DNA of 64,000 bases from Lachnospiraceae bacterium (GTDB taxonomy: Bacteria; Bacillota; Clostridia; Lachnospirales; Lachnospiraceae), in NCBI GenBank assembly GCA_017936785.1, contig JAGBEV010000044.1, positions 1 to 64,000 of the forward strand. The letters run 5' to 3'. Every line of letters starts with the position of its first letter. The first letter of the stretch is position 1. Shown here in pieces: positions 12,594 to 52,646 of this stretch. The notes below the pieces were generated by a model. That model did no database searches and was not told where the DNA came from. It saw nothing but the letters and a program-made list of their open reading frames with translations. A program made the position numbers and the translations under genes.

Positions 12594-12863
12594 GCGGACC
12601 GGGAGTTGCAAAGGGCGGGCGGGTAGTTCTTCTTTTCTGCGGCTTCTGCAATAAAACGGCAATTTTTCTTACAGAATGCATCACCCCCAGGGAAACCAGC
12701 CCCGGATGGGCTGGTTAACCGTCTCTGCGGCATGGACGCCGCATAGACGGTGCTCCCGTCCGTTACCAATAATACTCCGCGCATTCTGTTAGAAAAATCC
12801 GTTTTACTGCTCAGCCGCAGAAAAGAAGAACTACCCGCCCGCCCTTTGCAACTCCCGGTCCGC
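12594..12863. repeat. Palindromic structured element, copy 1
   Basis: The outer arms 12594-12644 and 12813-12863 are perfect 51-nt reverse complements. Inside them, 12652-12679 and 12781-12806 form a second inverted repeat (AAAACGG...ACAGAATGC). The centre holds a 9-bp hairpin (12694-12716, loop CGGAT), a hairpin at 12718-12751 (7 + 6 bp, loop ATGGAC) and a CCCGTCCG motif (12756-12763). The inner core recurs nearly unchanged at 37456-37733, but the outer arms there are unrelated. It exactly fills the gap between two convergent genes. No open frame with a ribosome binding site and no U-run after either arm is seen. It could be a structured RNA or a non-autonomous mobile element; the family is not recognised. 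Confidence 0.85.
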
Positions 12864-12885
12864 GTCCGCCCTAAAATCTCCCCCC

Positions 12886-37213: not shown

Positions 37214-37293
37214 GGGACCGCTTGGGGGAATCGTGCAGTTTATATTTCAGCCCGGAGAAAGAAATATAAACTGCACGATTCCCCCAAGCTCCC
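37214..37293 (-). promoter_or_regulatory. Very strong hairpin in the leader of the glycosyltransferase operon
   Basis: 37220-37248 and 37261-37289 are perfect 29-nt reverse complements around a 12-nt loop. GGGA (37214-37217) and TCCC (37290-37293) extend the stem past a 2-nt bulge. On the minus strand it begins about 10 nt after the predicted transcription start. No U-run follows the stem, so it is not a simple terminator. Confidence 0.75.
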
Positions 37294-37455: not shown

Positions 37456-37733
37456 GGCAGAGGAAAGGGGCAGGCGGCAGTAAGGGAAAGGGGTTGAGGT
37501 TTTTCATGGCTTCTGCAATAAAACGGTAATTTTTCTTACAGAATGCTCCACAACCCAGGGGAATCCTGCCATGGATGGCAGGATTAGGTTCCTTCGTGCA
37601 TGGATGCACGTTGGAACCGACCCGTCCGGTTCCCGGTAAATTCCCGCATTCTGTTAGAAAAATCCGTTTAATTGCCCAGTCATGAAAAACCTCAACCCCT
37701 TTCCCTTACTGCCGTCTGCCCCTTTCCTCTGCC
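37456..37733. repeat. Palindromic structured element, copy 2
   Basis: The outer arms 37456-37508 and 37681-37733 are 53-nt reverse complements with one difference, which is G:U in RNA. They share no sequence with the arms of copy 1 at 12594. From 37509 to about 37680 the core follows copy 1: a conserved left flank (GCTTCTGCAATAAAACGG), the ACAGAATGC / GCATTCTG inverted repeat, and CCCAGGG. A hairpin at 37562-37585 (loop ATGGAT), a hairpin at 37587-37618 (loop ATGGAT) and CCCGTCCG complete it. Both stems have different sequence from copy 1 but the same pairing. It ends 36 nt before lrgA, so it may be part of that leader. Confidence 0.85.
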
Positions 37734-37769
37734 GTCCCCCCGCCAAAACTAAAATCCAGAGGTGCCATT

Positions 37770-48187: not shown

Positions 48188-49759
48188 ATGAAAAAAATTA
48201 CGAAATATTATTTGGAATTGAAAATTGTTTTTCTGAAAACCGCAGCTTTGATCATTCTGGTGTGTTTATTTTTGTTTCCTTCATTTCATAAAATTGAGAG
48301 CACAGGAGATAATATGTATACCATCCTCTTAAACGGAGAAGAAGTGGGGATGGTGGACAGCAGGAAAACTGCGGAAGAATATCTGCGTAAGGCTCGTACT
48401 GCAATGATAAAGGAAGCAGAAGGGCTTGTTTTTGTAGATGCCGTAATGGAAACAGAAGGAAGGGAATTGATATTCGGCAGGGTTGACACAGAGGAAGAAG
48501 TGGTGGATAACATGTGCCGGGTACTGAAAACCAATGAGATTACGGACAGAAGTCTTGCTTATACTATCAAGATCAATGAGTTTACCGTTAATATCCAAAG
48601 TGCGGAAGGAGTAAAAGAAATCCTTCAGGCAGCGCTGGCTAAATATGACCCGGATAATGAATTTCAGGTAGAGCTGGTAGTGGACCCTGACAGGGAGATC
48701 AATGTATTGACCACCAGGATCACCACTTCCGACGACCGGGTAAAAGAGGAATTGGAAATGCCCATGGCAGGGGCAGAAAAAGCGTTCTACGAAATGGAGA
48801 GAAATTCTGATGTAAGTCTGCAGATGAGCTTTGATGATTTTGATTACGGGCTGGTGGACTTATATTATGGAGATGAAATTGAAGTAATTGAAACATACCT
48901 TTCACAAAATGAACTGACAGATGTTGCCACGGCAAAGGAGATCCTGACCAGAGACCAGGAGAAAAATACCATATATGAGGTTCAGGCAGGAGATACCCTT
49001 TCGGAAATCTCCTTAAAGACGGAAATACCGCTGGATCGCATTATCGAAATGAATGAGACTTTAGAGGATGAAAATTCTACCATCCGGGTAGGGGATGAAC
49101 TGATCATTACGATCCCTGAGCCGGAGCTTTCTGTTGGAAGACAGGAAGAAATCTATTACGAAGAGGACTATGATGCCCCTACGGAATATATTTACAATGA
49201 TGAATGGTATACAACAGATTCGGTTGTAAGACAGCAGCCTTCTGCAGGACACAGAAATGTTGCGGCAGTCGTTACTTATCGCAACAATTCCGTAACGGAT
49301 ACGGAAATCTTAAAGGAAGAGGTGACTATAGCTCCTGTTCCCAAGATCGTGGAGGTTGGTACGAGAATTCCGCCTACTTATATTAAACCTATTTCGGGCG
49401 GCAGGCTTTCTTCTAACTTCGGACGCAGAAGTGCACCTACCAGAGGCGCATCTACCTATCATAAAGGTGTTGACTGGGCTACTCCTGTAGGTACTGCAGT
49501 GGTTGCATCCTGTTCCGGTACGGTGGTGAGAGCCGGCTGGGGAAGCGGATACGGATATGTTGTATACATTAACCATCCCGATGGCAGACAGACCCGTTAC
49601 GGACATTTGAGCAAGGTACTTGTAAAGGTGGGACAGACAGTCTCCCAGGGAGATAAGATTGCTTTAAGCGGTAATACGGGCAGAAGTACGGGACCCCATC
49701 TTCATTTTGAAATTTTGATCGGCGGAAGTCAGGTCAATCCATTACAATATCTGAATTAA
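48188..49759 (+). CDS. LysM - G5 - M23 peptidase, cell-wall endopeptidase
   Basis: The 523-residue protein has an N-terminal membrane segment (about 15-32), a beta-rich region, a LysM domain (about 262-310, YEVQAGDTLSEIS), a G5-like segment (about 358-395) and a C-terminal M23 peptidase domain (about 403-523). Catalytic residues are visible: His in YHKGVDW, the Asp after it and the HLHFE motif in GPHLHFEI. It should cut peptide cross-bridges in peptidoglycan outside the membrane. It begins 4 nt after the flavin reductase gene. The layout resembles other Clostridia wall hydrolases. Confidence 0.93.
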   Translation: MKKITKYYLELKIVFLKTAALIILVCLFLFPSFHKIESTGDNMYTILLNGEEVGMVDSRKTAEEYLRKARTAMIKEAEGLVFVDAVMETEGRELIFGRVDTEEEVVDNMCRVLKTNEITDRSLAYTIKINEFTVNIQSAEGVKEILQAALAKYDPDNEFQVELVVDPDREINVLTTRITTSDDRVKEELEMPMAGAEKAFYEMERNSDVSLQMSFDDFDYGLVDLYYGDEIEVIETYLSQNELTDVATAKEILTRDQEKNTIYEVQAGDTLSEISLKTEIPLDRIIEMNETLEDENSTIRVGDELIITIPEPELSVGRQEEIYYEEDYDAPTEYIYNDEWYTTDSVVRQQPSAGHRNVAAVVTYRNNSVTDTEILKEEVTIAPVPKIVEVGTRIPPTYIKPISGGRLSSNFGRRSAPTRGASTYHKGVDWATPVGTAVVASCSGTVVRAGWGSGYGYVVYINHPDGRQTRYGHLSKVLVKVGQTVSQGDKIALSGNTGRSTGPHLHFEILIGGSQVNPLQYLN

Positions 49760-52544: not shown

Positions 52545-52646
52545 CTCTTATTCAGAGTGGTGGAGATACAAAGGATCTGTGAAGCCACGGCAACCCCAAC
52601 AGACAATGGAAGGTGCCAACCTGAGCGAGTAATCGAACAATAAGAG
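52545..52646 (+). promoter_or_regulatory. SAM-I (S-box) riboswitch
   Basis: The P1 stem is CTCTTATT (52545-52552) with AATAAGAG (52639-52646). Inside are the S-box landmarks: AGAGTGGTGGAG, the GAAGCCACGGCAACC core (52581-52595), GGTGCCAACCTGAG and GCGAGTAATCGAAC. It binds S-adenosylmethionine and leads into a terminator, so high SAM should switch metK off. Confidence 0.95.

Follow-up and report, generated by a model that had tools for sequence, protein, structure and literature searches.

TwoAYGGAY RNA copies in Lachnospiraceae stand on long outer stems with mostly copy-private, complementary arms

An intergenic repeat in a Lachnospiraceae bacterium raises the question of how copies of one element can share a conserved middle while their outer arms differ from copy to copy, each arm pair nonetheless remaining complementary. 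The window analysed here is a stretch of 64,000 nucleotides (NCBI GenBank assembly GCA_017936785.1, contig JAGBEV010000044.1, positions 1 to 64,000) and holds two such copies, both on the + strand. A first-pass annotation made from the letters had described perfect 51-nt arms around a recurring core, with pairing kept in both copies, and these observations were upheld. In copy 1, the 5′ outer arm (12594..12644, 51 nt) is complementary at 51/51 positions to the 3′ outer arm (12813..12863), which is directly followed by GTCCG. Copy 2 has a 56-nt 5′ outer arm (37456..37511) and a 3′ outer arm at 37678..37733, directly followed by GTCCCC; 54 of the 56 positions are complementary, the other two being G.T when read in the sense direction. 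The second core was recovered at 37512-37675 with 75% identity to the first. Perfect 51-nt arms are not to be expected by chance (~4e-22 by a crude estimate for 64 kb and a spacer of up to 600), and the folds of both copies lie ~20 standard deviations below those of shuffled sequence (z of −20.7 for copy 1 and −19.6 for copy 2). Part of the copies also share an edge outside the variable arms, namely A/ACA before the 5′ arm and GTCCG or GTCC directly after the 3′ arm (in the window, 12864-12868 and 37734-37739).

Both window cores are full-length covariance model matches to RF01731 (model positions 1-168 of 168; gathering cut-off, 43 bits), at 12646..12812 for copy 1 (92.6 bits) and 37514..37676 for copy 2 (85.8 bits). 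The repeats are thus, with near certainty, copies of TwoAYGGAY, a described structured RNA family that was listed in 2010 (PMC2864571, in excerpt) and for which a link to CsrA has been proposed (PMC4333381, in excerpt). A novel RNA family is ruled out by this match, and the earlier statement that no described family behaves in this way fails for the core; a match to a known RNA family had been named there as grounds for refutation, which removes the novelty of the RNA and leaves the behaviour of the arms untouched. The window copies resemble the family in matching its model from end to end, with scores roughly double the gathering cut-off, and in carrying two GGA-loop hairpins, and differ from it in an outer stem of ~20-100 bp that lies outside the Rfam match; the available excerpts of PMC4333381 mention an external stem as "not well conserved." No description of private complementary arms or of divergent pairs was found in the available portions of the literature on TwoAYGGAY/RF01731, Lachnospiraceae inverted repeats, template switching, and CsrA-FliW in Clostridia. 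The novel finding concerns the outer stem, which is long in almost all copies examined, differs in most of its sequence from one copy to the next, and changes on both sides in concert. The window also contains a SAM riboswitch (RF00162) at 52545-52646; a search for this riboswitch, intended to supply a control for pairing, gave one copy per genome and was left aside.

The stem is a general property of the element. This genome (G000; 66 contigs) carries 24 copies above the RF01731 cut-off, and up to 31 loci were found per genome. In a first pass over G000, long outer arms flanked 23/24 copies, the exception being a match with a shortened core. Across G000 and the genomes of three other species (G003, G005, and G008), at least 20 complementary arm bases were present in 103 of the 104 copies lying in retrieved stretches (of 108 counted matches in these genomes). 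Another six species, including two from other genera, gave 14/16 copies in which 20 or more paired bases ended no farther than 30 nt from the core (two loci cut by contig ends were skipped, and three loci from G003, G005, and G008 were left out). Pairing is rarely flawless: copies pairing over 20 or more bases, free of mismatches and gaps, numbered 11/24 in G000, 3/24 in G003, 5/27 in G005, and 7/29 in G008, so that the perfect self-complementarity first described held as near-universal complementarity, with fewer than half of the G000 copies free of mismatches. Mismatch frequency rises away from the core, in G000 from ~1 to 3% at positions 1-30 to 9 to 12% at 30-50 and 20 to 28% at 50-80 (10 to 18% past position 80, which few arms reach), and in G003, G005, and G008 pooled from 4 to 10% in the first 30 positions to 23 to 32% at 30-70. 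Within the core, predicted folds placed GGA in at least two hairpin loops in 92/104 copies and in one loop in the other 12, while the antisense strand had at least two such loops in just 2/104; in the alignment, GGA occupied the first loop column in 101/104 copies and the second in 69/104, the remainder being shifted or changed. A conserved core with two GGA loops is seated on a stem of ~20-100 bp in which the letters are free and the sides complementary. G000 contigs C40 and C41 both open with a TwoAYGGAY fragment of ~113 bases, and because the two fragments share length and score, the assembly probably breaks inside a copy at these contig starts.

The first-pass annotation had also held that the arms of different copies have nothing in common. 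This stood for G000, where the 5′ arms gave weak local matches at most (best local score, 14) and the closest core pair was 84% identical; it did not stand throughout, as some G008 arms are related between copies (best score, 22) and one duplicate pair in G003 has near-identical arms. In that pair (neighbours at positions 48498 and 49979 of contig C44), the cores are 93% identical, which indicates that a duplicated core takes its arms along. At the other extreme, the copy G000_C50_31933 and its G006 counterpart (neighbouring gene, 83% identical) have cores that align and arms that are unrelated, yet each is complementary. Given these two cases, and other G000 cores that are at most 84% identical with weak arm matches, we read the private arms as what drift after duplication, under a constraint to pair, would leave behind. 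An origin of the arms from other DNA nearby was also considered; when 23 arms were compared with 210 kb of their own loci, the matches were their own arms plus two of 15 and 16 nt attributable to chance (beyond these loci, the search covered copies 1 and 2 only), and the idea was rejected.

Orthologous copies in G003, G005, and G008 allowed the two sides of each stem to be followed through time. Thirty groups were chosen by hand (flanks mostly 83 to 99% identical; range, 77 to 100%), and mirrored changes were counted in 28 of them, after removal of two groups whose elements differed altogether and of one deviating member, G003_C37_191380. Among 808 arm pairs compared within ~34 nt of the core, no change was seen at 715 Watson-Crick and 19 non-Watson-Crick pairs; one-sided changes led to G.U in 27 cases, A.C in 10, and another mismatch in 21, and four states had changed on both sides without a restored pair. 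Mirrored changes, in which both sides had changed and paired again, numbered 15, against ~0.35 expected from the single-sided rate (52 doubles in all pairwise comparisons over all 30 groups). At orthologous sites, the stem thus changes in mirrored pairs far above chance. The first-pass annotation had named two candidate causes, selection for pairing and copying of one arm from the other, and the comparative data favour these same two. One locus pair among these genomes, G003 C60 (L138) and G005 C37 (L153), had flanks 99.8 to 100% identical over 2.4 kb, above most orthologous loci, for which recent transfer, slow evolution, and a mixed assembly are three readings.

The kind of mirrored change bears on its cause. 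Eleven of the 15 were transversions (for example, A-T to T-A between the arms of G003_C11_93142 and G008_C11_32338), and transversions in a stem cannot pass through G.U. Selection on the RNA alone, with two independent substitutions per changed pair and no special mutation process, is a possible but doubtful account: the stem folds far beyond shuffled sequence and one-sided changes favour G.U over A.C (27:10; P = 0.008), as it would predict, but those 11 transversions would each need a true mismatch as intermediate, and the mirrored changes cluster, with two or three each in three groups. The excess of mirrored transversions is as expected from template switching between the arms, to a contribution of which we give an even chance, and the 27:10 preference argues for selection on the sense RNA.

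A second account holds that the hairpin works as DNA, as a cruciform or a single-stranded fold (e.g., in a mobile or recombination element), and that its resemblance to RNA is secondary. It draws on the ratio of G.U to A.C across whole arms (63:63) and on the inner 9-bp helix, where G.U makes up ~0.5% although each position shows several Watson-Crick pairs. Near the core, however, G.U exceeds A.C (54:32 within 30 nt of the core over all copies; P = 0.02), and the GGA loops are strand specific. A control set of 85 terminator-like stems from the same DNA gave 35:38, and the whole-arm ratio was dropped as proof of a DNA-level role because these stems show the same ratio; with whole arms at 63:63 and the control at 35:38, the pair-type test as a whole is weak evidence. 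Mobility would also fit certain site differences. The intergenic region of copy 1 has the same two genes in G002 and G006, where the element is absent and a terminator-like hairpin stands instead (by eye), and the site G005_C25_32162/G008_C15_61829 has flanks 92 to 99% identical around an element that differs together with its arms. Tandem duplication and subsequent differential loss would account for the same differences: in G005_C14, 63 nt separate two tandem copies whose cores are 95% identical, and a gap in G008_C5 holds a 3′ half copy (by eye), which makes this explanation sufficient. Moreover, the closest G000 cores, at 84% identity, speak against a recent burst, and a terminal repeat common to all copies is absent. 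The earlier remark that the arms are unlike ordinary transposon ends was borne out, since terminal inverted repeats of the MITE type, shared among copies, were not found and G000 arms share only weak matches; short flank motifs are common to part of the copies, and the close G003 duplicates share arms. Taken together, we regard a DNA-level function as improbable.

Other sites add to the record of gain and loss. At three, G003 is without part or all of the elements found in G008, absences that we read as deletions, and at G008_C1_113530/G005_C18_267643 the core subtype differs between species. An origin from phage or plasmid was rejected on a search with copy 1 and its arms, which had no match in phage and plasmid collections. 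G003 locus L132 (~785-846) holds a near-perfect hairpin of ~67 nt that G008 and G005 lack at this place; it would be a different kind of palindrome, inserted or newly made.

Copies often occur in divergent pairs. Among the matches listed (151 typed, of 163 counted), 32 neighbours lay less than 2 kb apart and 31/32 were divergent (binomial P of ~5e-18, with orthologous pairs non-independent); among the matches listed for the wider family sample, two divergent neighbours (G231 and G061) and one tandem pair (G189) were seen by eye. In G003, G005, and G008, 21/25 divergent pairs mix two core subtypes (expected, 11.6; 0/20,000 permutations as high), subtypes being assigned by simple patterns that left 16/24 G000 copies untyped, with the two G000 pairs excluded and orthologues counted repeatedly. 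As the antisense strand is mostly without GGA loops, a divergent pair would place one sense copy in the path of outgoing transcripts, whichever their direction. Upstream of copy 2, at the place of its would-be divergent partner, lies a perfect hairpin of 29 nt with a 12-nt loop (37220..37289, − strand), followed at its − strand 3′ end by GGTCCCCCG, which resembles the GTCC after the element arms; judged by position and edge, this may be the partner of copy 2 minus its core.

Most copies sit between co-oriented genes (crude gene calls). No obvious regulon was seen among the genes adjoining G000 copies (names by eye, crude gene calls); the downstream genes are of many kinds, and this variety (by eye) ruled out cis-control of one pathway. 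Promoter-like sequences were not enriched in the 90 nt that precede the arms (99 flanks; mean best score, 5.14 versus 5.01 in shuffles; P = 0.76), in a noisy test whose control on the 3′ flanks gave 5.54 versus 4.75 (P = 0.04), and an own promoter upstream of each copy was rejected on this result. Since such enrichment directly upstream was not found, it is more likely that the elements belong to longer transcripts than that each is a gene starting its own. That the arms are the stems of a 3′-end or bidirectional intergenic terminator is very unlikely, because, although G002 and G006 carry a terminator-like hairpin in place of copy 1, a T-run is absent directly after the 3′ arm on the sense strand of both window copies (read from the sequence), the genes around most copies are co-oriented, and a conserved core bearing GGA loops on one strand is not something that a terminator requires.

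The first-pass annotation had suggested searching family genomes for the core, and the search found TwoAYGGAY RNA in 36 of 250 genomes from 249 genera (stricter filters, at most 10 candidates scored per genome). CsrA was present in 35/36 RNA-bearing genomes versus 91/214 others (Fisher's exact test, 8e-11), and the flagellar export protein FlhA (gene flhA) was present in 36/36 versus 92/214 (2e-12); because CsrA and FlhA presence differs in only 6/250 genomes, the two associations are inseparable. G000 encodes CsrA. Within the genus, no CsrA match was obtained in G003, which has 24 copies and FlhA (an assembly gap is possible), and CsrA was absent from G191, which has one RNA copy and FlhA. 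On this co-occurrence and the GGA loops, we lean somewhat towards TwoAYGGAY copies binding CsrA.

The explanation that we find best overall, and consider probable, is that TwoAYGGAY copies are CsrA-binding modules whose stem is kept by pairing selection together with template switching. The element would be transcribed within intergenic or untranslated-region transcripts, and its two GGA loops would be bound by CsrA, making the scattered copies modules that may act as decoys or as local controls of their transcripts. CsrA binding does not explain a stem of such length. Its pairing would be kept by selection on the RNA and by template switching between the arms during replication, a process that would transfer a change between the arms in a single event and that can create and maintain RNA hairpins (PMC8794818, in excerpt). 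After duplication, the arms would therefore drift from those of the parent while staying complementary. More tentatively, and as a conjecture that we would not yet favour, the copies could form a distributed CsrA sponge of up to ~30 scattered two-site modules per genome, often in divergent subtype pairs, on stems that renew themselves by template switching, so that arms would soon become private and the hairpin would stay near-perfect.

The published CsrA prediction for TwoAYGGAY thereby gains a strong, motility-confounded genomic association and concrete loci, and ~100 orthologous and paralogous stems become available for telling pairing selection from template-switch mutation. Among known systems, REP/BIME and MITE-type palindromes are likewise dispersed, intergenic, and palindromic. 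MITE ends are shared among copies, whereas the present copies have mostly different ends around a conserved middle. The RNA hairpins maintained by template switching described in the available excerpts of PMC8794818 share mirrored changes, some of several bases, that keep stems paired; those are RNA genes (rRNA histories), and the stems described here are longer and belong to an intergenic repeat of bacteria. CsrB/CsrC and RsmX/Y/Z of Gammaproteobacteria also present hairpins with CsrA-type sites, but these RNAs, as the available excerpts of PMC4333381 describe them, carry numerous sites each, whereas in the genomes examined here the sites are scattered, with about two at each of up to 31 loci per genome.
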